From positions 1-41,779 of the forward strand of contig JABDRL010000099.1 of assembly GCA_013041765.1 (NCBI GenBank): DNA of 41,779 nucleotides, given 5' to 3'. Numbering within the stretch: the stretch's first letter is position 1; each line of letters begins with the position of its first letter. The translations under genes were made by a program, and so were the position numbers. Source of the stretch: Dactylosporangium sp. (GTDB taxonomy: Bacteria > Actinomycetota > Actinomycetes > Mycobacteriales > Micromonosporaceae). Positions 21,567-36,100 of this stretch are shown here, in pieces. The notes beneath the pieces are model-generated. The model ran no database searches, was not told the DNA's origin, and saw only the letters and a list, made by a program, of their open reading frames with translations.

Positions 21567-24521
21567 TCAGGAGCCCACCAGCATGCCGTAGTCGGCCAGC
21601 GCGACCGCCACGTCCGTCTGTGCCCAGAACCGGTGGTAGTTGAAGGTCGGCGCCGCTCCGCCGTCCAGGTACGCCTGGACCTTGGACCAGTCCGGGTCGT
21701 CCTGGTAGAAGGAACGGATGTCCAGGAAGGACTTGCCGGCGGCGATCTCGTCACCGTTCGGCATCGTGCCGCTGAAGCCCGACGGGATGTAGAGGCCCTG
21801 CTCGTCACCGCTGGACCAGATGTCGTCGAACCGGTCGTAGTCTTCCCGGGTCTCCTCGACGGAGACACCCTGGGTGTCCTTGTGCGCCAGGATGCCGTCG
21901 AGCAGGCCCTTGGCCGCCGTCAGGGCCTCGGTGTTGTTGGCCTTGACGCCGTAGTAGGTCAGCAGGTGGGCATAGGAACCGGCAACGCCGATGTCGGTGG
22001 TGTGGTCCACCACGCTGACGTGCAGCCCGGAGTTGTCCACCGAGGTGGTGCCGTCGGCCCAGTCGCCGCCGGGCTGGCCGGTCCAGCTCAGCGTCGACGG
22101 GATCTGGAAGTCGCCGCCGCTGCCGACCGTGGTGTTCTCCAGTGCCCAGGACACCCACTTGTCGAGGATGGCCTCGGCCCGGGCGTCACCGGTGGCGTAG
22201 TAGTACTCCGCCAGCCGCTCGACGCCCCATGCCTGGAAGCCGAACCACTGGTTGGACGGCGGGTCGTGGTACACGGGCTTCTCGTCGTAGGCCATGCCGT
22301 AGAAGGTCGGCGTGCCAGCTGGTGGGGCGCCGTAGGCGCCTTCCCAGCTGTTGGTCGCGCCACCGGCGATGGCCCCCTCCGACGACTGCAACCAGGTCAT
22401 GAAATCGACCTGGCGGTCGAGGCTGGTCGCCCAGTCGGCCTGCGCCGTCGGCGACTGCGGGGTCAGCTCGCTGACGGTGGACAGGGCCCAGGCCGCGAAC
22501 GGGTTCTGGTATCCACCGTGGTTGTGGCTGGAGCCGATCCGCCAGCTCCAGGATCCGTCGAGCGCGCCGCCCCAGGCGTAGTACCAGGACAGCAGGTAGG
22601 CCGAGGCGTCCTTGCCGGTGCCGGCCGCGCAGTCCGGTGAGGTGCATCCCGGCTGCTTGAAGTACTTGTCGTACATCGCGTAGCGCAGGTAGTCACCCAT
22701 CTTGGCGGCCTTGTCGATGGTTGCCGCCACCTCGCTCGCCTTGCCCTGCTCCGTGGCCCAGGTCAGGGCCCAGTAGGCGACCTGGACGGCGCGGGCGTCG
22801 GCGTCGGGAGCGTTGGTGAACCGCCACTGCTGGGCGTACTGCTCGTCCTGGATAAAGATCGGCAGGTACCCGTTCTCGCTGCCGTAGTCGAACGTCTCGC
22901 ACGACGGGTGCGCGACGGTCTCCCAGACCGACTCCTGCGGGCCCCGCTGATAGGTGTTGATGTAGGCGGGCGTGGTGGTGCCGTCGCCGCACTTGCCGTA
23001 ACCGTAGACGTTGTCGACGTCCAGCAGCCAGTGCATGCCGTAGATGTCGTTGGTGCCGTAGGTGGAGCTGAGTTCGTTGTACAGCGGGTCGGAGCCCGGC
23101 GTGACGGACGAGTCCATCGGCGTCGGGTAGCTGGACGGCTGGTCGAATTCAGGGGCGTAGGTGGCCGGCGAGCTCGGGTCGTAGCCGCTGTTCTGCGGGT
23201 AGTCCGTGCCATTGGGGATGACGTATGTCTCCATGACGTCCCAGGCGGCGTTGAACGGCGCCCAGTCCTCAGTGATCCGGCCGTGGTTGGCCTCCAGCCA
23301 CAGGTAGTAGCTGAACGCCTCGGACGTGGTCTCGTGACCATGGTCCGGGGCCTCGACCATCAGCGTCTCGATCGAGTGATACGGGACGCCCTCCGGGCTG
23401 AAGTACCCGTTCGCCGGGTCATGGATCTTGTTGTACAGCTCGGTGAACTCCTGGACGTAGGTGCCTCCGGCGGCATCGTTGTCACTTTCGATCGCATTGA
23501 TCGTCGCCAGCTCGTAGCCGGCGGTGGTCGCGGTGATCGTGGCGGAGTCGCTGGTGGTGTCCTCGTCCTCGGCCGCGGCCAGGGTCACCGTCTGCGCGGT
23601 GCTCCAGTTGCTGGTGGTGAAGGTCCGCGAGGAACCAGCGGAGACGGTGATGTCCGAGTCGCCCGCGGTCCGGGCGACCGTGACGGTCGTGGACGCGGTC
23701 GGCGCGCTGGACAGGGCGATGGCGAACGTCGCCGTCCCGCCCTCGGGAACCGTGACACTGGCCGCCGAGGTGACCACGTGCGGGTCGGTGGTGACCAGTA
23801 CCGACACCGGCACCGCCGCGGACGTGCCGACGGCACCCGCGGAGTCGTACGCCTTGGCGACGAGGCTGTAGTCGCCGACGGGAACGGCGGTCAGCGTGTA
23901 GCTGTACGGGGCGGTGGTGGAGGTGCCCGCCAGGATCCCGTCCCGGTAGAACTCGACCTTGGTGATCGAGTCCCCGGCATCCGGGTCACTGGCCGACGCC
24001 ATGATGGGAATCGTCGCGGGGGCGGTGAAGGTGGCGTTGGCCGCCGGGCTGGTGATGCTGACGGTCGGGGCGGTGTTGTCGCCGGTCGTCTGGCCCGTGC
24101 AGGCCACGCCGTTGAGCGTGAAGCTGGTCGGCGCCGGGTTGCTGCTCGACCACGAGCCGTTGAAGCCCGGATTGACCGAGGCGTTCGTGCCGAGACTGCC
24201 GTTCCACGCCATGTTGGACAGCGTGACGTGCTGGCCGGACTGCGTATACGTGCTGCTCCAGGCCTGCGTGATCTGCTGGCTGGAGTCCGGGAAGTCGAAC
24301 TCCAGGTCCCAGCTGCTCAACGGGTCGCCCAGGTTGGTAATCGCGACGTTGGCCGTAAAGCCACCGGGCCAGTCGTTCGTCGTGTACGCGACCTGACAGC
24401 CTGCTGCCGCCGACGCGGGGCTCGCGGCCACGGCCACGAGGCTGGCGGCGACCACAGCCGTTGCCCCGAGCCCGGCCACGACGCGGCGTCTGCGACCGCG
24501 GATGGCTCTGGTGATATTCAC
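21567..24521 (-). CDS. Secreted GH48 reducing-end cellobiohydrolase with CBM2, Ig-like and Calx-beta-like modules
   Basis: A 984-residue secreted cellulase. A signal peptide with an RRRR motif ends near SPASAAA (residue 39). CBM2 spans about 40-142. A bacterial Ig-like domain lies at about 150-240 (VSITSPAANATFTAPATI, VEFYRDGILAG, DYSLVAKAYDSAG). A Calx-beta-like beta-sandwich lies at about 245-345 (VTVPEGGTATFAIALSSAP, ATITATTAGYE). The GH48 catalytic domain fills about 350-984: FTELYNKIHDPANGYFS, HGHETTSEAFSYYLWLEANH with the probable catalytic Glu, and a C-terminal WAQTDVAVALADYGMLV. GH48 enzymes release cellobiose from reducing ends and are key markers of true cellulose degraders. The GTG start has AGGAG 8 bases upstream. 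Its CBM2 is nearly identical in DNA to that of the GH6 gene. Confidence 0.95.
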   Translation of the reverse strand: MNITRAIRGRRRRVVAGLGATAVVAASLVAVAASPASAAAGCQVAYTTNDWPGGFTANVAITNLGDPLSSWDLEFDFPDSSQQITQAWSSTYTQSGQHVTLSNMAWNGSLGTNASVNPGFNGSWSSSNPAPTSFTLNGVACTGQTTGDNTAPTVSITSPAANATFTAPATIPIMASASDPDAGDSITKVEFYRDGILAGTSTTAPYSYTLTAVPVGDYSLVAKAYDSAGAVGTSAAVPVSVLVTTDPHVVTSAASVTVPEGGTATFAIALSSAPTASTTVTVARTAGDSDITVSAGSSRTFTTSNWSTAQTVTLAAAEDEDTTSDSATITATTAGYELATINAIESDNDAAGGTYVQEFTELYNKIHDPANGYFSPEGVPYHSIETLMVEAPDHGHETTSEAFSYYLWLEANHGRITEDWAPFNAAWDVMETYVIPNGTDYPQNSGYDPSSPATYAPEFDQPSSYPTPMDSSVTPGSDPLYNELSSTYGTNDIYGMHWLLDVDNVYGYGKCGDGTTTPAYINTYQRGPQESVWETVAHPSCETFDYGSENGYLPIFIQDEQYAQQWRFTNAPDADARAVQVAYWALTWATEQGKASEVAATIDKAAKMGDYLRYAMYDKYFKQPGCTSPDCAAGTGKDASAYLLSWYYAWGGALDGSWSWRIGSSHNHGGYQNPFAAWALSTVSELTPQSPTAQADWATSLDRQVDFMTWLQSSEGAIAGGATNSWEGAYGAPPAGTPTFYGMAYDEKPVYHDPPSNQWFGFQAWGVERLAEYYYATGDARAEAILDKWVSWALENTTVGSGGDFQIPSTLSWTGQPGGDWADGTTSVDNSGLHVSVVDHTTDIGVAGSYAHLLTYYGVKANNTEALTAAKGLLDGILAHKDTQGVSVEETREDYDRFDDIWSSGDEQGLYIPSGFSGTMPNGDEIAAGKSFLDIRSFYQDDPDWSKVQAYLDGGAAPTFNYHRFWAQTDVAVALADYGMLVGS

Positions 24522-26745: not shown

Positions 26746-27606
26746 ATGCGCAGAGCGCGACCGTCAACGCGATCACCCGGACGGCCCACGCGCCGGATCA
26801 ACACCGGCCCCCGCTCACGAACCTCGTCCACCCGGAGAAGCACCGCCGAGCCCCAGACCGGGCTGCGCGAGATCGTGCGCCTCATGGGCACCTCCGTCAG
26901 CCTCCACCTCGCCGACGACTTCGACCACGAGTCCCTGATCCAGCTCGCGGATGAGGCGTTCTCCTGGCTCCGGCTGGTGGAGCAGCGTTTCAGCCCGTAC
27001 CAGCCCGGCAGCGAGGTCAGCCGGCTGCGCCGGGACGAGATGTGCCTTGCCGAGTGCTCGTCCGAGGTGCGCGCCGTCATCGACCGGTGCGCGCAACTCT
27101 GGGCCATGACCGATGGGTACTTCGATGCCTACGCGACCGGAGCGCTGGACCCCTCGGGGTTCGTCAAGGGCTGGGCCGTCCAGGTCGCCTCCGACCGCCT
27201 CCTGGCGGCCGGTTGCGCCAACCACTGCATCAACGCCGGCAGCGACGTACGGATGCGCGGGCGTCCCGTCCCCGGCCAGCCATGGCGGGTGGGCATTCGG
27301 CATCCGCAGCAGGGGGTCGGGCCCTCCTGGATCGTCTCCGGTACCGATATCGCCGTTGCCACCTCCGGGATCTACGAGCGGGGCTGCCGGGTGGTCAACC
27401 CCCACGAGGGGCGGCCGTCGATGGAACTCCAGTCGGTCACGGTCGTCGGGGCGGATCTCGGGCTGGCCGACGCGTACGCCACCGCCGGCGCCGCCATGGG
27501 TATGCCGGCGCTGACCTGGCTGGCGGGGCTGCCGGACCACGAGGCCGCCGTCATCACCGAGGACGCCCGGTGCTTCCGCTCTGACGGGCTTCCCACCATC
27601 GACTAG
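26746..27606 (+). CDS. apbE: FAD:protein FMN transferase (ApbE family)
   Basis: A 286-residue flavin transferase that attaches FMN from FAD to a threonine of target proteins, usually extracytoplasmic FMN-binding domains. Motifs visible are LMGTSVSLHL, FSWLRLVEQRFSPYQPGSEVSRL, LDPSGFVKGWAV (the variant of LGGIAKGYA), INAGSDVRMRG, IAVATSGIYERG and ADAYATAGAAMG with the metal-binding Asp. The start at 26746 is decided by AGGAGG 5 bases upstream, although about 40 basic, Ser/Thr-rich residues precede the conserved domain. No lipobox is visible, so a cytoplasmic form or atypical export is possible. A ferric-reductase-like protein lies three genes downstream; the usual FMN_bind partner is absent. 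Confidence 0.9.
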   Translation: MRRARPSTRSPGRPTRRINTGPRSRTSSTRRSTAEPQTGLREIVRLMGTSVSLHLADDFDHESLIQLADEAFSWLRLVEQRFSPYQPGSEVSRLRRDEMCLAECSSEVRAVIDRCAQLWAMTDGYFDAYATGALDPSGFVKGWAVQVASDRLLAAGCANHCINAGSDVRMRGRPVPGQPWRVGIRHPQQGVGPSWIVSGTDIAVATSGIYERGCRVVNPHEGRPSMELQSVTVVGADLGLADAYATAGAAMGMPALTWLAGLPDHEAAVITEDARCFRSDGLPTID

Positions 27607-28584: not shown

Positions 28585-28737
28585 CTGGCCGCATTCAGTT
28601 ACATGTCCTGTGGTCGATGATACCGTTGCGGTTCCTGACCGCAGTCCCCCCATTACCCATTGGTCGCCATGGGTGCGTCTCTGGCTCCCGGGATCGACGA
28701 TCAGGCCGCACTACCTCGGCTCATGGGGAGGTCCGCG

Positions 28738-29601
28738 ATGGAGTATTCCTATGCGAGCCGCCAGCGCGGCAGCACTCGCCGGACGGCCGTTGCCCCACCG
28801 GCACGTCCGGGCAACCAGCGGCCGGCGCAGAACCTCATCGGACGCTCCCGCACGGACGACGAGGTCACCGAGCTGCTGCACCGCATGACCCGCCTGCGCT
28901 ATGACGACCCGAGACGTCGGGCCCTGCGGGAGCACGTCGTCCGGCTCTACCTGCCCTACGCCCAGCAACTGGCTCGCCGGTTCTTCGGCCTGGGCGAGTC
29001 CCTCGCGGACCTCAGCCAGGTCGCCGCCATCGGGCTCCTCAAAGCCGTCGACGGCTACGATCCCTCCTACTCCGGCGGCTTCCACGCGTACGCGACGCCC
29101 ACCATCTCCGGGGAACTCAAGCGCCACTTCCGCGACCGTTGCTGGGCCGTGCAGGTCCCCCGCAAGCAGCAGGAACTGCGCTTGCGGATCAGCAGGACCC
29201 GCGACGAGCTGACCCAGCGGCTCGGCCGCTCGCCGACGGTCGCCGATGTCGCCGGCCACCTCCAGGTCGGCGAGGACCAGGTGATCGAGGCCATGGTCGC
29301 GGCGAACGGCTACCGGCCGGCCTCCCTGCACGCCCTCACCGCCCGGGATCATGAGTTCGAACTCGTCGATCGTCTCGGCGAGGTCGAACCCGGCTATGAC
29401 GTCATTGAGCTGCGCGAATCGATCGGCCCAGCCGTCGCCCGGCTGCCGGCCAGGGAACGAAAAATCATCGAACTGCGATTCTCCGGTGACCTGTCCCAGT
29501 CCCAGATCGCCGCCCAGCTGGGCATCTCGCAGATGCACGTGTCCCGGCTGCTGGCCAGGAGCCTCCGGCAGCTGCGTCGCAGCCTCGTCGAGGACCGCTG
29601 A
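28738..29601 (+). CDS. RNA polymerase sigma factor, SigB/F/G subfamily
   Basis: A 287-residue group 3 sigma-70 factor. Region 2 contains YLPYAQQLARRFFGLGESLADLSQVAAIGLLKAVDGYDP and FHAYATPTISGELKRHFRD, typical of SigF/SigB proteins. Region 3 has RLGRSPTVADVAGHL. Region 4 has the helix-turn-helix SQSQIAAQLGISQMHVSRLL. The ATG at 28738 is 6 bases behind GGGGAGG; a longer frame from 28660 has no such site. SigB/F/G factors are normally held by anti-sigma factors (RsbW-like), yet none is adjacent, so partner genes must be elsewhere. Role probably stress or development. Confidence 0.93.
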   Translation: MEYSYASRQRGSTRRTAVAPPARPGNQRPAQNLIGRSRTDDEVTELLHRMTRLRYDDPRRRALREHVVRLYLPYAQQLARRFFGLGESLADLSQVAAIGLLKAVDGYDPSYSGGFHAYATPTISGELKRHFRDRCWAVQVPRKQQELRLRISRTRDELTQRLGRSPTVADVAGHLQVGEDQVIEAMVAANGYRPASLHALTARDHEFELVDRLGEVEPGYDVIELRESIGPAVARLPARERKIIELRFSGDLSQSQIAAQLGISQMHVSRLLARSLRQLRRSLVEDR

Positions 29602-29738: not shown

Positions 29739-31088
29739 GTGGCCAGGAGCAGAGCCGTCACCACCGACGCCGTCGGCGCGGTCGCCGTCCTCAGCGTGCT
29801 CGCCGTCACCGCACTGTGGACGTCCAACCGCGGTATTCAGGATCTTGCTGGCCCGAGCGGCGGCGCCAGCTCGCTCGGTCGCCTGACCGGGCTGCTCTCA
29901 GCGGATCTTCTCCTGATCCAGGTGCTCCTCATGGCCCGGCTGCCCTGGGTCGAGCGCGGCTTCGGCCGGGACCGGCTGGCCCGGTGGCATCGCATCGCTG
30001 GATTCATCTCGGTGAATCTCATGCTCGCGCATGTCCTGCTGGTGACGCTTGGCTACGCGGGCAGCGTCTCCCGGTTCGGCAACGAGTTGTGGAGCCTGCT
30101 CGTCGACGCTCCCGGCATCCTCCTGGCCTTCGCGTCGATGCTGCTGCTGGTGCTGGTGGCGGTCACCTCGATCCGTGCGGCCCGCCGCAGGCTGCGCTAC
30201 GAGTCGTGGCACCTGCTGCATCTGTACGCCTACCTCGGTATCGGACTGGCCATCCCCCATCAGCTGTGGATCGGCACCGACCTCACCACGTCCGGCGTGG
30301 CGACGGCCTACTGGTGGACGCTGTACCTCGCCGCCGCCGCATCGATCATCGTGTTCCGCATCGGCGTGCCCCTGGCCCGCAGCGCCTACCACCGGCTGGA
30401 GGTCGCCGAGGTGGTCGGCGAGGCCCCCGGCGTCGTCTCGGTCCACCTGCGCGGCCACCGGCTGGACCGGCTGCCCGTCCGCGCCGGCCAGTTCTTCCTC
30501 TGGCGCTTCCTGGACGGCCCGGGCTGGAGCAGGGCACACCCGTACTCGCTGTCGGCGGCGCCCCGTGGAGACCGGCTGCGCATCACCGTCAAGGACCTCG
30601 GTGCCGGTAGCGCGCGGGTCGCCAGCCTCCGGCCGGGCACCAGGGCACTCATCGAGGGCCCCTTCGGGCGGCTGACGGGCGAGGCCTACGGCGGAGGTCG
30701 GGTGACCATGTTCGGGTGTGGCGTCGGCATCACCCCGCTGCGGTCGCTGCTGGAGGAACTGCCCTACGCCGCCGGCCAGGCCACCCTGGTGTACCGGATC
30801 CGCTCGGACGCGGACATCGTGTTCCGCGACGAGCTCCGGGAACTGGCCAGCGATCGTGGGATCCGGGTGATATATGTCCCCGGCCCCCGAGCGGGCGATC
30901 ACTCGTGGCTGCCCAGCGGCGAGCCCCGCCGCGACGACGTCGCGGCGATCCAGGAACTCGTCCCCGATCTGAGGGATCACGACCTCTACATCTGCGGACC
31001 GGACAGCTGGGCCGAGGCCGTCAGAACGGCCGCGATCACGGTCGGTGTCCCCCCGAGCCGCATTCACGCCGAACGCTTCGCGTGGTAG
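29739..31088 (+). CDS. Ferric-reductase-like transmembrane flavoprotein with FAD/NAD(P)H module
   Basis: A 449-residue protein. The N-terminal half has about six membrane helices with heme-ligand-type histidines (ARWHRIAGFISVNLMLAHVLL and ESWHLLHLYAYLGIGLAIPHQLW), as in ferric reductase/NADPH oxidase domains. The C-terminal half has an FAD-binding barrel (AGQFFLWRF, RAHPYSLSAAP, EGPFGRLTG) and an NAD(P)-binding fold (VTMFGCGVGITPLRSLLEEL, LYICGPDSW). No 2Fe-2S domain follows. It passes electrons from cytosolic NAD(P)H across the membrane. AAGGAG lies 4 bases before the GTG start. In many actinobacteria this gene is next to an FMN-binding protein and apbE; here apbE is close but the FMN-binding protein is missing. 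Confidence 0.9.
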   Translation: MARSRAVTTDAVGAVAVLSVLAVTALWTSNRGIQDLAGPSGGASSLGRLTGLLSADLLLIQVLLMARLPWVERGFGRDRLARWHRIAGFISVNLMLAHVLLVTLGYAGSVSRFGNELWSLLVDAPGILLAFASMLLLVLVAVTSIRAARRRLRYESWHLLHLYAYLGIGLAIPHQLWIGTDLTTSGVATAYWWTLYLAAAASIIVFRIGVPLARSAYHRLEVAEVVGEAPGVVSVHLRGHRLDRLPVRAGQFFLWRFLDGPGWSRAHPYSLSAAPRGDRLRITVKDLGAGSARVASLRPGTRALIEGPFGRLTGEAYGGGRVTMFGCGVGITPLRSLLEELPYAAGQATLVYRIRSDADIVFRDELRELASDRGIRVIYVPGPRAGDHSWLPSGEPRRDDVAAIQELVPDLRDHDLYICGPDSWAEAVRTAAITVGVPPSRIHAERFAW

Positions 31089-31118: not shown

Positions 31119-32069
31119 ATGGGCTCCTTCCGCGTAGGGCGCCGCACGGCCCTGACCACCGCGCTGCTCGCGGCGACGGCCGCGGCCTGCCGGAACGCCG
31201 AGAAACAGATCAGCGGCCCGATCGAAATCGCGACCGGCAGCCCGACCGCGGTCTACCACCGCTACGGGACGGCGTACGGCGCGCTGATCCGCGAGGCGCT
31301 GCCCCGCACCCGGCCGACCGTGATGATCACCGCCGCGTCCGGAGAGAACATCGCCCTGCTGGAACGGGGAACGGCCCACATCGGCTTCGCCCAGGCCGAC
31401 ATCGTCAGCTCCGCCAGCCCCGGTTCGATCGCCGCGCTGGCCCGCCTCTACGACGACTGCCTCCATCTGGTGGTCCGGGCGGATGATCCGATCTGGTCGG
31501 TCGCCGATCTGCGCGGGCGAAAGGTCTCGATCGGCGAGGCGGGCTCGGGGACCGAGGTCACGGCCGGACGTCTCCTGTCCATCGCCGGACAGGACTCGTC
31601 CGGCCCCGCGCCCATGGCCGACGTCCGCGTGCGGCGGCTGGGGCTGAACGCCTCGACGACGGCGCTGCTCGAACGCCGGATCGATGCCTTCTTCTTTTCC
31701 GGAGGGTTGCCCGTCGCCGCCATCGCCCAGCTCAGGGAGACCCTGCCGCTCAAGCTGATCGATCTCCAGGCGTACGCCATGACCATGCGGCAGGCCTTCG
31801 GCGATCACTACCTGGAACGGGTCATCCCGATCTCGGCCTACGGCATGTCCCCGGCCCTCGGGATCGGCATCCCGAACTACCTCGTCGTCGCCACCGCCAT
31901 GCCCCGCCCGACGGCGCACGCGCTCACCCGGGTGCTGTTCGCCGGCAGGGAACACCTGGCAGAGGCCCATCCCGCCGGGGCGAGCCTCGACCGTCGAAGC
32001 GCCATCAGCACCCCGCCGCTGTCCCTGCATCCCGGTGCGGCCCAGTACTACCGCTCGGTCAAGGCCTGA
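31119..32069 (+). CDS. TAXI-family (TRAP-type) solute-binding lipoprotein
   Basis: A 316-residue binding protein. The N-terminus VGRRTALTTALLAATAAAC has a twin-arginine-like pair and a lipobox Cys, so it should be an exported lipoprotein. The mature part shows the TAXI signature IEIATGSPTAVYHRYGTAYG near residue 34, ITAASGENIALLERGTAHIGFAQADI, and VADLRGRKVSIGEAGSGTEVTA. TAXI proteins bind small organic acids for TRAP transporters, but no TRAP membrane subunit is encoded here. The gene ends 22 bases inside the convergent histidine kinase gene. I infer a sensory partner role rather than transport. Confidence 0.9.
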   Translation: MGSFRVGRRTALTTALLAATAAACRNAEKQISGPIEIATGSPTAVYHRYGTAYGALIREALPRTRPTVMITAASGENIALLERGTAHIGFAQADIVSSASPGSIAALARLYDDCLHLVVRADDPIWSVADLRGRKVSIGEAGSGTEVTAGRLLSIAGQDSSGPAPMADVRVRRLGLNASTTALLERRIDAFFFSGGLPVAAIAQLRETLPLKLIDLQAYAMTMRQAFGDHYLERVIPISAYGMSPALGIGIPNYLVVATAMPRPTAHALTRVLFAGREHLAEAHPAGASLDRRSAISTPPLSLHPGAAQYYRSVKA

Positions 32070-33472
32070 GGCCACCGGATCGGCTCCACCGTCGGCAACC
32101 AGATCCGCACATCCAGCCCATGCGGAACGGCCGGGAGCAATTCACAGCAGCCTTCCGACGCCTCGACCAGCACGACGACAATGGCCAGCCCCAGACCGCT
32201 GCCCTCCACGGCGGTCGAACCCGGTCCTCGCCAGAACCGTTCCGTGGCATGTCCGCGCTGCTCCGCCGTCATCCCGGGCCCGGTGTCGGTCACATGGATC
32301 TCGGTTCCCCACCCGCCCGGTCCGCCGTCGGCGGTTTCCACCCGGACCACGACCTCGCACCCGTCACCACCGAACTTGACCGCGTTGTCGATCAGAGCGT
32401 CCAGCGCCTGATCCAGTGCCGTGGACACCACATTCGCCCGGCACGGCTGATCCGGAGCAACGTAACGCACCCAGACCTGCCGCCGCTGGGCCAGCGGATG
32501 CCAGGCCTCGACCCGCCGCTGGCAGCGTTCCCCGACGTCGACCTTCTCCAGGATCCCGCGACCGCTGTCCGCCTTGGCCAGCGACAGCAGGCTGTCCAGC
32601 ACCTGCCCCATCCGCTCGCTCTCCTCCAGCGCCAGCCGGTGCCCGTCCCGTGCCTCGGGGGTGCTCAGGTCGTAGCCCAGTTCCTCGACGTGCAACCGCA
32701 GGGCGGTCAGCGGGTTGCGGAGCTGGTGGCTGGCGTGGGAGACGAAGGCTCGCTGGCGTTCCAGGAGGTCGGCGACAATGACGGTCATGGAGTTGAAGGC
32801 GTGTGCCAGGCGTCGCAGCTCCGGGGGGCCGAGATGGTCCGAGACCCGGACGGAGTAGTTGCCGGCGCCGATGTGGTGAACGGCCGCGTCGAGTTCCGCG
32901 ACGGGGCGCAGGGTCCACCGCGCGAAGTGCCAGGCCGCCGCGAGTCCGATCGCCAGCACGAGCAGCCCCCCCGCGGCCAGGATGCTCCAGGCCAGGGTGA
33001 TGGTCGCCGCGGTGTCGTCCACGGCCGAGACGACGATGATCGCACCGTAGTACTCCCCGCCGCTGCCGACCGGCACCGCGACCACGATCGGCGTCGACCG
33101 CCACGGCCAGACCGTTCCGCTCTCATCGGCCTGCCGCCCCGCGAGTGCCCTGCGAGACTGCCGCAGCACCTGGCTGTTGTCCAGGTCGATCCACCCCAGG
33201 GCGGTCAACACGATCCGCCCGTCCGAATCGACGAGTGCCACCTCGATCCCGTACAGCTCGCCGTATCGTTCGAGTTCAAAGCCCAGGTCTGCCGTGTCGC
33301 CCGTTCTCAGCACCGGTTCGGCGAGGCTGGCGAACCGGATGGCGTCCTCCAGCCGGTCGGCGAGGACGCGCTGCGTCTCCCGGCTGGCCAGGGTGACGCC
33401 GAACGGAACCTCCAGCGCGATCAGGACCATGGCCAGCAGTAGCACGTAGCTCGCCATCAGGCGACGACACAC
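32048..33472 (-). CDS. Membrane sensor histidine kinase without adjacent response regulator
   Basis: About 474 residues. Transmembrane helix 1 (LMASYVLLLAMVLIALEVPFG) and helix 2 (ILAAGGLLVLAIGLAAAWHFA) flank an extracytoplasmic sensor of about 130 residues. A HAMP-like segment (ARWTLRPVAELDAAVHHIGAG) follows. The phospho-acceptor is in FVSHASHQLRNPLTALRL, and the ATPase has N-box ALIDNAVKFGG, VTDTGPGM and GSGLGLAI. GTG 33472 is preferred because AAGGAG lies 6 bases upstream; ATG 33535 and ATG 33457 are in frame. It converges on, and overlaps by 22 bases, the TAXI lipoprotein gene. No response regulator is visible in the window. Confidence 0.92.
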   Translation of the reverse strand: MCRRLMASYVLLLAMVLIALEVPFGVTLASRETQRVLADRLEDAIRFASLAEPVLRTGDTADLGFELERYGELYGIEVALVDSDGRIVLTALGWIDLDNSQVLRQSRRALAGRQADESGTVWPWRSTPIVVAVPVGSGGEYYGAIIVVSAVDDTAATITLAWSILAAGGLLVLAIGLAAAWHFARWTLRPVAELDAAVHHIGAGNYSVRVSDHLGPPELRRLAHAFNSMTVIVADLLERQRAFVSHASHQLRNPLTALRLHVEELGYDLSTPEARDGHRLALEESERMGQVLDSLLSLAKADSGRGILEKVDVGERCQRRVEAWHPLAQRRQVWVRYVAPDQPCRANVVSTALDQALDALIDNAVKFGGDGCEVVVRVETADGGPGGWGTEIHVTDTGPGMTAEQRGHATERFWRGPGSTAVEGSGLGLAIVVVLVEASEGCCELLPAVPHGLDVRIWLPTVEPIRWPQALTER

Positions 33473-34352
33473 CTGCAACTCCTTCCGGGGCCGGCGGGCT
33501 TCGTCGCCACCGTCGCCGGCCCGTGACTGGGCCATAGCAGCATTTACTAAAGCGGGAGATCCATCAAATCAATTGGTATTCGCACTTCACCGGAACCGAA
33601 CATTCCGCAAATCACAGCCAAAGAATAGGACGCAAGATTACCCGAGCGAAACGACCATCGCGACAAACTCACGGCGAAAGACATAGGCCGATCGGCTAGT
33701 TATGCAATGATTCTTGCATCGGACATATCACCCTACCCAAAACGGAGATACGGTCACAGCAGACGGGGAGAAGACTAGCCCCCCACTCCAACCGCCGCTG
33801 CCCCGGCGGCGGGCACAGCACGCACGCTTCGACCGCGCGGCTGGCGCCCCCGGCGGCGGACGGCGCCCGGAGCCCGGGGGTGCGGCGGCGCGATGCCCGT
33901 CGCCAGCCCCGCCGGGACGGCCGGCCAGGGGTCGTCACCCGCCCCACCGGACACCCAGATCCGCTGGTCAGCAGATGAATGGTCGGGCGCCTTGGCCGGC
34001 AGGCCAAGCTCCCGGGGCAGCCCGCCCCGGTCTACCTCAGCGGCTGTTGCGGGTTACTGATCTCGGATGTCGACGGATCACCATCGCGGCCGATGGGCCG
34101 CCCCGCAGCGCGACGCTCGTCAACGCCTATGCCAACGTTGCTCGAATCGACACTCTCGTATTTGATGGAAGGGAGAATCTCCACAATCGAAAGGCCGGCA
34201 TACATACTTGCATGAGCGAGTTCGTCAAACAATACTCCGGCACGGAGCATGTGCCCCCTGATTCGCTCCAGAAATCCCGCCGGCTCCCGGTGAAGTATTG
34301 AACCTCCGCAGTCGCGCGCCGGAGGCTTGCCGCATAGTCGTTCTCCTGGGCA
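33473..34352. other. Long intergenic region, AT-rich on its left side
   Basis: About 880 bases with no convincing gene. 33536-33730 is AT-rich and contains an inverted repeat ATGCAA-TGATTC-TTGCAT at 33702-33719, perhaps an operator. The middle (33780-33960) is very GC-rich, with long frames that look like shadows. 34032-34250 on the minus strand holds a 72-codon frame with AT-rich third positions and a GGGGG element before its ATG, too weak to call. The right end borders the broken MMPL gene and probably includes the lost gene's recombination scar. Confidence 0.35.
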
Positions 34353-35240
34353 TCATCCGGAACTGGAAATCCCGCTCGGCCACCAGGACGTCATCCCGCC
34401 GGCGAACAGCACCGCGTGGCCGGCCGTTGCGGTCGCCGTGCCGGCGGCCCGGGCCACCCGTTCCGGCCCGCTGGCACCGGCCGGCGCGGCCAGTGCCCGG
34501 CGGAACCGGGTGACCACGAACAGGGCATAGTCGATGCCGGCCCCCATGCCCAGCATGACCGCGATGATGGGCGCGCTCGTCGGGATGTCGACGACTGATC
34601 CGGTCAGGAGCACCAGGGCGGTACCCACGATCAGCCCGACGATGGCGATGGCGATCGGCAGTCCCGCCGCCACCACCGACCCGAAGGCGATCAACAGCAC
34701 GACCAGGGCGGCCCCGAGCCCGACCAGTTCGGCGACGCCGGTCGTGGGTTCGGTCGCCGCGTCGATGACCAGGCCCCGGAACTCCACCTGGAGACCGGCT
34801 GACCGAGCGGTGTCCGCGGCGGCTTCCAGGCGCCGGTAGGGCTCCTTGCCGAGGTCGCCGACCTGGCCGGCGTACCGGATGGTGCTGCTAGACACCCGGT
34901 TGTCCGGGCTGGTGGTGAGTTCACCGACCGCGGTGACCCCCGGCTGGTCGCTGATGGCCGCCAGCGTCGCGTCGATCGCGGTCCGCCGATCGGCGACATC
35001 GCCGTCCTCCGCGGCGAACACGATCTCCGCTTCGGCGGCCCCGTAGGCCGGGAAGTGTGCCCGTACCAGGTCCGAGGTCTGCTGGGCCTCGGATCCGGGG
35101 AACCGGAAGTCGTTGCCGAAGGTGCCGCTGGTCGCCTGGCCAAGGACGATCAGGGCGACCGCCGCGAGCAGCCAGCCACCGATGGTGCGCCACGGGTGGC
35201 GGGCCGAGGCCCGGCCGAGTCGGTACAGGGTGTGCTCCAC
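34353..35240 (-). pseudogene. Truncated MMPL-family transporter
   Basis: Only the first 295 residues of a protein family usually 700 or more long. It has the N-terminal start RLGRASARHPWRTIGGWLL, the first membrane helix, the periplasmic loop with SEAQQTSDLVRAHFP, and the first helix block VGLGAALVVLLIAFGSVVAAGLP with MLGMGAGIDYALFVVTRFR. Similarity stops abruptly after AGHAVLFAGG (near 34395) and an unrelated tail of about 13 residues leads to the stop. The second half of the gene is not found downstream. MMPL/RND pumps need both halves, so this copy should be inactive. It is divergent from a TetR gene that probably controlled it. Confidence 0.85.
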
Positions 35241-35314: not shown

Positions 35315-36100
35315 ATGCTCGACTCCGGTGGTGTGCCACAACGGCCGGGACAGCCCACGCAGCCGGCATGTCCGAAGCCGCCGGGACATCGCGAACGCAA
35401 GAAGCAACGCACCCGGCGGGCCCTGATCGACGCCGCCACCCGGCTGTTCGCCGAACGCGGCTACGACGGGACGACCATCGCCGACATCACCGAGGCCGCC
35501 GGAGTCGCCCCGCGCACGTTCTTCAGCTACTTCGAGTGCAAGGAGGACGTACTCTTCACCGACTCCATCGCCCGGCTGGAGCGGGTCCTCGACGTGCTGG
35601 CCAGCCGCGGGGCGGGCGAGGGCATCAGCGAGTTGCTCGTCCGGGTGGTGTCCAGCTTCGAGGAAGTGCAAGACCTCGAGGTCGGCTTTCTTTCGCCGAC
35701 CGGCCAGATGCGCATGCAACTCGTGTTCACGACGCCCGCCGTCCAGGCCCGCGCGGCCCACTGGATCTTCGACACCGAGGAACGGCTGGCGTCGGCGCTC
35801 TATCAGGCCTACCCGGACGAGCTGGACGAGATCGCCGCAGCCGCCATCGTCGGCGCCTATACCGGGGCGATAATGCAGGGGATCATCGCCAGCATCAAGC
35901 GGGGCCACGGCCCGAGCCGGGTTCTGGCGGAGCTGCGGCGGTCCTGCGAGATCGCGCTGCGGGGCGTCGCCAACCCGGTCCCACCGCCGGCAACCCCGCA
36001 GACCCCAGGCGGCACCCCCGGCAAGGTTGGAACGCACGGACCACTCAGCAGGCAAACTCAGGTCGGGCCGGAAAACGACTCCGCTGAACCCACCGCATGA
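35315..36100 (+). CDS. TetR-family transcriptional regulator
   Basis: A 261-residue regulator. The DNA-binding domain lies at about 28-75 (RRALIDAATRLFAERGYDGTTIADITEAAGVAPRTFFSYFECKEDVLF), with a classic helix-turn-helix. The ligand-binding domain runs to about 215, with the conserved helix EIAAAAIVGAYTGAI. A Pro/Gly-rich C-terminal tail of about 40 residues is unusual and may be disordered. It is divergent from the truncated MMPL pump, with two palindromes in the 74-base gap. I infer local repression of the pump; with the pump broken the regulator may be an orphan or may control other genes. The tail could carry an upstream start alternative (ATG 35369), but the first ATG is adequate. Confidence 0.93.
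   Translation: MLDSGGVPQRPGQPTQPACPKPPGHRERKKQRTRRALIDAATRLFAERGYDGTTIADITEAAGVAPRTFFSYFECKEDVLFTDSIARLERVLDVLASRGAGEGISELLVRVVSSFEEVQDLEVGFLSPTGQMRMQLVFTTPAVQARAAHWIFDTEERLASALYQAYPDELDEIAAAAIVGAYTGAIMQGIIASIKRGHGPSRVLAELRRSCEIALRGVANPVPPPATPQTPGGTPGKVGTHGPLSRQTQVGPENDSAEPTA

Follow-up and report, generated by a model that had tools for sequence, protein, structure and literature searches.

A TAXI-family solute-binding protein found in many actinomycetes probably works with a sensor histidine kinase rather than as part of a transporter. The window, by which we mean the whole stretch of 41,779 nucleotides of Dactylosporangium sp. DNA that was analysed, contains one such pair. A functional link between the two proteins is well supported by gene neighbourhoods and phylogeny, and gene order across genomes indicates that TAXI, kinase and an OmpR-type response regulator are an old unit conserved over actinomycete families. 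We think it probable that the TAXI protein of this trio serves a three-component sensor as its extracytoplasmic ligand-binding subunit, acting with a kinase that has a PDC domain and with the regulator; the physical contact of TAXI and kinase, the ligand and the target genes are what we infer beyond the functional link. The genes concerned are the following.

26746-27606, plus strand: neighbouring gene for an ApbE family (flavin transferase) protein
28660-29601, plus strand: upstream neighbour, gene for a SigB/SigF/SigG-type sigma factor
29739-31088, plus strand: gene for a ferric-reductase-like transmembrane flavoprotein, upstream of the TAXI gene
31119-32069, plus strand: gene for the TAXI-family solute-binding protein, 316 aa (open reading frame and profiles)
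32048-32069: tail-to-tail overlap of the TAXI and kinase coding sequences, 22 bp, with neither length nor presence constant among relatives
32048-33535, minus strand: gene for the sensor histidine kinase, 495 aa as longest open reading frame (open reading frame and profiles)

The kinase probably starts at a GTG at position 33472 (residue 22 of the longest open reading frame), because the kinases of relatives align from about there. These coordinates confirm what a sequence-only reading of the same DNA had described, a TAXI gene convergent with a kinase gene and sharing 22 bases with it at the 3' end. The ferric-reductase-like gene ends 30 bp before the start of the TAXI gene, and the two are probably co-transcribed; they lie in identical order in the sister locus (L004), which also keeps the sigma factor neighbour, and a sigma factor gene also accompanies the trio in L255 and in the Virgisporangium loci L021 and L031. 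The minus strand of the window also carries a gene for a secreted glycoside hydrolase family 48 cellulase with a CBM2 domain (21567-24521) and a truncated MMPL-family transporter gene of 295 aa (34353-35240), apparently a fragment, which adjoins a TetR-like regulator gene at 35315-36100. Open reading frames and profile searches revealed no TRAP membrane subunit in the window neighbourhood, as the sequence-only reading had noted, and the DctM profile (PF06808) found no match in the whole genome (5.19 Mb, 93.97% complete), so no hidden TRAP permease was found elsewhere in it. That reading had also remarked on the absence of a response regulator. This is true of the window, where tblastn detected neither a regulator nor its remnant (best E 0.70), but it is a local, derived state, since relatives have an adjacent OmpR-type regulator.

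Relatives were fetched by the TAXI protein alone, and the best 80 of 175 were taken, all from Micromonosporaceae genera. In these 80 loci (best 80 of 175), the kinase is seen in 78, the other two stopping at a contig end; TAXI and kinase are convergent in 77, and 76 have an OmpR-type regulator of ~218 residues behind the kinase. The four loci without an adjacent regulator are the two at contig ends, L009, whose contig carries a 79%-identical regulator ~5 kb further on, and the window's nearest relative, L004. A kinase-first search of 41 genomes of the family found 24 kinases, of which 23 have a TAXI gene within 5 kb (0.08 expected); the one without, in G031, is 40% identical. Seventeen of the 23 family pairs are convergent and six tandem, and the regulator lies behind the kinase in 21, the two exceptions being the genomes of the window's genus. 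The tandem loci L180 and L181 have the order regulator-kinase-TAXI, with kinase and TAXI genes overlapping by 4 bp. Genes inserted between TAXI and kinase vary among Micromonospora loci, with no common theme; L019 (7102-8963) and similar Micromonospora loci, with a gap of ~2.2 kb, have an ATPase and a permease at this place that look ABC-exporter-like by eye. The pair is thus conserved across genomes, the outcome of a co-occurrence check that the sequence-only reading had proposed, and the regulators adjacent to the kinase in most loci rule out that orphan status is a property of the system. From that reading's idea of a sensor built from transporter parts, the conserved pairing of a binding protein with a kinase survives; the orphan state does not, nor does antisense control, which is taken up below.

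The 41 family genomes hold 50 TAXI genes, spread over 30 genomes. Twenty-three lie beside this kinase type, 14 within 1.3 kb of DctM, three at 4.0-4.5 kb from it and ten near neither; none of the 23 kinase-linked genes has DctM nearby, and of the 21 genomes with this kinase 12 also have DctM and nine are without it. Co-occurrence of this TAXI with TRAP subunits encoded elsewhere, which would have spoken against the pairing, was not found: the window genome is devoid of DctM, and the DctM genes of relatives sit beside a different TAXI paralogue. Among the remaining 13 TAXIs, 11 are in operons of an NIT-HATPase kinase, a roadblock protein and TAXI (five of these kinases were checked by profile), and the other two are in G041, near a contig end, and at G025:C22:80301. 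The NIT-kinase/roadblock operons represent a second TAXI-kinase pairing, derived separately. The window genome itself has an operon of this kind, comprising NIT-HATPase (CvnA-like), roadblock/LC7 and TAXI genes (L096:7142-10151, on G000:C342); others are in L172-L178 and L185, and the operon directly adjoins a TAXI-TRAP operon twice (L178, L185). In the available part of a paper on conservons, the accessory proteins described are GAF and P450 proteins, and TAXI goes unmentioned (PMC13343842).

At the level of the class, TAXI is found in 48 of 148 genomes. Forty regions were viewed in two sets, the first 20 hand-chosen, mostly for lower-scoring TAXIs, and the second 20 chosen for unlabelled and remaining ones. 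In the first set, all 20 TAXIs have this kinase type within ~3.1 kb and 19 have the regulator, the region without it stopping just after the kinase. A TAXI tree was built from 101 rows, for which 18 window or Micromonosporaceae-locus rows were kept and duplicates and rows below ~240 residues dropped. A branch with support 98/94 separates all 55 kinase-linked rows from the 27 TRAP-linked and the 11 roadblock-linked ones, and context changes once on the tree compared with a shuffled mean of 29.9. Five unlabelled rows also fall in the kinase lineage; kinase and regulator are near four of them (L235, L236, L237 and L239) and neither is near L238. In the second set, 25 TAXIs were placed by profile, a test that is not independent of phylogeny and in which the TRAP-linked TAXI of L235, at least, had served in a training profile as L187. 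Of the 19 assigned to the kinase lineage, 15 lie within 5 kb of both kinase and regulator; all six assigned to the other lineage lie within 2.1 kb of DctM. The kinase-lineage TAXIs without a kinase within 5 kb are L238, L251, L252 and L254, the last three scoring low on both profiles. The tree indicates that kinase-linked TAXIs are one lineage, distinct from TRAP-linked TAXIs across the class.

No single carrier accompanies this lineage, whose constant partners are the kinase and the regulator. By family, the carriers adjoining the trio are amino-acid ABC (SBP_bac_3; in the f17, f25 and f16 loci), TctC with TctB, Na_sulph_symp, SDF and MFS. In L235, L239, L246 and L247 (genomes G126, G129 and G060) the neighbour of the trio is a TRAP operon equipped with another TAXI, separate from that of the trio; a Streptomyces plasmid (RefSeq annotation) likewise carries TAXI, kinase and regulator adjacent to a fused TRAP permease that comes with an additional TAXI. 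Because these adjoining TRAP operons have their own TAXI, a role of the kinase-linked TAXI as the transporter's subunit is hard to reconcile with the gene arrangement.

The window TAXI matches NCBIfam TIGR02122 (TRAP_TAXI) with 195.9 bits (cut-off 84.35), Pfam PF16868 with 154.8 bits (cut-off 27) and, by sequence, TtGluBP (E 1.4e-23). Its AF2 model shows the two-lobed TAXI fold (pLDDT 92.8), and the best PDB matches of the model are TAXIs holding L-glutamate (TM 0.85). The N-terminus is twin-arginine-like, with Cys24 in a weak lipobox (Ala at -3); a loose lipobox pattern, to which we give little weight, occurs in 97 of 118 kinase-linked TAXI rows. In the accessible part of PMC11574862, VcGluP binds glutamate via Y45, S75, Q93, E125, Y200 and M201, with Y45 and Q93 critical. 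The window residues aligned to these sites (Y46, S74, Q92, D113, F193 and S194) form a predicted pocket, and the residues are identical in 17 of the 17 Micromonosporaceae rows compared in the alignment. In seven rows, those of TAXIs beside TctC, SDF or Na_sulph_symp carriers, Arg follows Tyr or Phe, Ser or Asn replaces Gln, and Ser replaces the acid, as would be expected if contact with an amino group were lost; the seven form one clade and so the change counts as one event. Because the window pocket matches the VcGluP sites and that clade diverges from them, the ligand of the window TAXI is predicted to be an alpha-amino dicarboxylate, most likely L-glutamate. VcGluP and TtGluBP (PMC11574862, as far as available; PDB 1us4, 8u79, 8s4j) share the fold of the window TAXI (TM 0.79-0.86) and have equivalent pocket residues, but VcGluP serves a fused TRAP permease, whereas the window lineage is kinase-linked and lies on the opposite side of the TAXI tree.

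Kinase-linked TAXIs also tend to end alike. Of the 55 kinase-linked tree rows, 48 carry the motif [RKQ]xxK no more than three residues from the stop, compared with one of 27 TRAP-linked and one of 11 roadblock-linked rows. All 80 Micromonosporaceae loci (best 80 of 175) have it, the window TAXI as R312..K315; in the second set of class-level regions it is found in nine of 15 kinase-context rows, and it is missing from the Streptomyces plasmid trio. The basic tail is a candidate kinase-docking element, which we offer as a lead and no more.

Profile search identified HAMP, HisKA and HATPase_c domains in the window kinase, and among the matches listed (25 best) no family-specific equivalog lies above its cut-off. 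Two hydrophobic (transmembrane) helices flank an extracytoplasmic domain of ~120 aa that is predicted to adopt a PDC/extracytoplasmic PAS fold (pLDDT 89.7), with fold matches to WalK, YycG, a kinase PAS domain, CusS, PctA and DctB. CodY GAF domains, also among the PDB fold matches, were taken as weak, fold-level similarity only.

A search for the cognate regulator, likewise suggested by the sequence-only reading, led to an unlinked candidate. The window genome yields 42 regulator-like matches, the best of which (C263:21308-21958 of genome G000) is 62% identical to a trio regulator. In the regulator tree, the C263 gene falls inside the trio-regulator clade (SH-aLRT 95) and the runner-up, on C255, outside it. 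The C263 gene has no kinase alongside and adjoins FMN_bind and ApbE genes; ApbE and ferric-reductase genes are also close to a complete trio in Virgisporangium L021, L031 and in L255, with FMN_bind in the first two. The simplest account of these arrangements would be an ancestral cluster of the trio and flavin redox genes that was split in the window's genus. The C263 gene is likely to be the regulator of the window kinase, the reservation being that the search of the sister genome (G036, 82% complete) found no close C263-type regulator. The C255 gene, although common to both genomes of the genus, is the less likely partner, being outside the trio-regulator clade. It is a second orphan OmpR-type regulator, present as L098:1120-1866 (G000:C255) and L121 (G036:C785). 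A glycoside hydrolase family 9 gene, shown for L098, follows shortly downstream, and the regulator may come from a TAXI-type system that is lost or distant. In another genome (G040), an unlinked trio-clade regulator (L171:6036-6692, at G040:C1:5028032) coexists with a linked one, so membership of the clade alone is no proof of partnership. Orphan copies of the trio-type regulator arose more than once.

These observations suggest a mechanism in which TAXI, tethered or secreted outside the membrane, would bind a glutamate-like ligand and, once liganded, dock on the PDC domain of the kinase. Docking would change autophosphorylation of the kinase and thereby the activity of the regulator, whose likely targets in this organism would include the genes for flavin-based membrane redox functions that adjoin TAXI and the C263 regulator.

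Direct ligand binding by the kinase PDC domain would make the TAXI protein a regulon member or scavenger that buffers or delivers a shared ligand and is kept near the kinase via the same nutrient. We regard this, the main rival, as rather unlikely, although it can draw on GluK of Streptomyces coelicolor, a kinase apparently of our type, for which the available part of PMC9739842 reports direct binding of glutamate but not of glutamine (biolayer interferometry) and mentions no binding protein, a result that speaks against a need for TAXI, and on the fold predicted for the window kinase domain, which resembles amino-acid and dicarboxylate receptors such as the matched PctA and DctB. Against it, TAXI stays with the kinase in convergent and tandem layouts and beside many unrelated transporters or none; the second TAXI of adjoining TRAP operons makes a delivery role redundant; and the TAXI pocket varies with the class of neighbouring transporter (one clade, one event). 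That TAXI instead serves a non-TRAP permease encoded elsewhere, as Bordetella BP0403 does with GltS, and adjoins the kinase for control of uptake seems improbable to us. TAXI-GltS does indicate, as far as PMC12344293 is available, that TAXIs can serve another carrier, and the trio often adjoins carboxylate or amino-acid carriers, but these carriers change while kinase and regulator do not, and no carrier was seen beside the pair in the window and in most Micromonosporaceae loci (immediate neighbours viewed, non-exhaustive).

The two remaining alternatives concern the window itself. Its pair could be a decaying remnant that has lost its regulator and left the kinase without a cognate partner, as the missing adjacent regulator in either genome of the genus and the fragmentary MMPL gene next door might suggest. 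We find this very improbable: both reading frames are intact and open, with 61-62% identity to their sister-genome counterparts and with catalytic domains and pocket retained, and a regulator of the right clade is present, unlinked. Mutual antisense control through the 22-bp overlap, raised in the sequence-only reading, starts from a real overlap and yet is scarcely credible. Only 22 of 77 convergent loci (best 80 of 175) overlap at the 3' ends, by 4-129 bp, with gaps of 0-200 bp in 43 and larger distances in 12. Because sizes vary, most convergent loci lack an overlap and some pairs are tandem (6 of 23 in the family), the overlap is not the conserved feature.

A three-component sensor with TAXI as its binding subunit would resemble BctC-BctE/BctD of Bordetella pertussis, in which, according to the available parts of PMC5812351 and PMC9602780, a secondary-transporter (TctC-type) binding protein also acts on a kinase-regulator pair. 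BctC, however, serves its own TctAB permease as well, whereas the protein that would contact the kinase here comes from a dedicated TAXI lineage without a permease, and from a different binding-protein family. GltB-GtrS-GltR of Pseudomonas aeruginosa (PMC7927077, in part) and XylFII-LytS (known to us from the reference list of PMC9602780) are further cases of binding-protein-dependent two-component sensing, but they use sugar binding proteins of other families and no TAXI. TAXI-GltS of Bordetella pertussis is, in what is available of PMC12344293, another TAXI working without TRAP membrane subunits, its partner being a carrier where ours is a kinase. In GluR-GluK (SCO5778/SCO5779) of Streptomyces coelicolor, an OmpR-type regulator and a kinase lie beside gluABCD (available part of PMC9739842), and the f17 loci have the same order plus a TAXI gene convergent to the kinase; from this gene order we infer that the f17 loci are the Streptomyces GluR-GluK locus, although the account in that part of PMC9739842 names no TAXI component. 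Unlike GluR-GluK, the window pair is without adjacent gluABCD, and its kinase is 37-39% identical to the f17 kinases beside gluAB-like genes. The full-text literature searched, which leaves out most subscription papers, contained no report of TAXI as a kinase partner, and kinases are unmentioned in the available parts of the TAXI-GltS (PMC12344293) and VcGluP (PMC11574862) papers. Kinases aided by binding proteins are already known; what the literature searched does not report is a TAXI lineage that partners a kinase so consistently across many families.

A wider reading, which we put forward tentatively, is that a three-component nutrient sensor, mobile and freely combined with different carriers, would have this whole actinomycete-wide TAXI lineage as its obligate extracytoplasmic receptor, GluR-GluK being one type of the sensor. 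The TAXI pocket would be exchanged to match the carrier plugged in (ABC, TTT, SDF, DASS, MFS or TAXI-TRAP), a TRAP carrier would go with two TAXIs, one for sensing and one for transport, the [RKQ]xxK tail would be a candidate docking element, and the pairing with NIT-type kinases and roadblock proteins would be a second, separately derived solution.

The system is found across many soil actinobacteria, and the consistent partnership of TAXI and kinase would surprise a specialist. If the sensor role is true, one widespread TAXI lineage would add many cases to the ~10 characterised binding proteins that activate sensor kinases, as counted in the available part of PMC9602780, and kinases of the GluK type would gain a missing receptor part. 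The ligand class would become predictable from pocket residues and the neighbouring carrier. The presence of TAXI genes without TRAP permeases in many actinomycetes would be explained, and the annotation of such TAXIs as 'TRAP transporter subunit' would be misleading.
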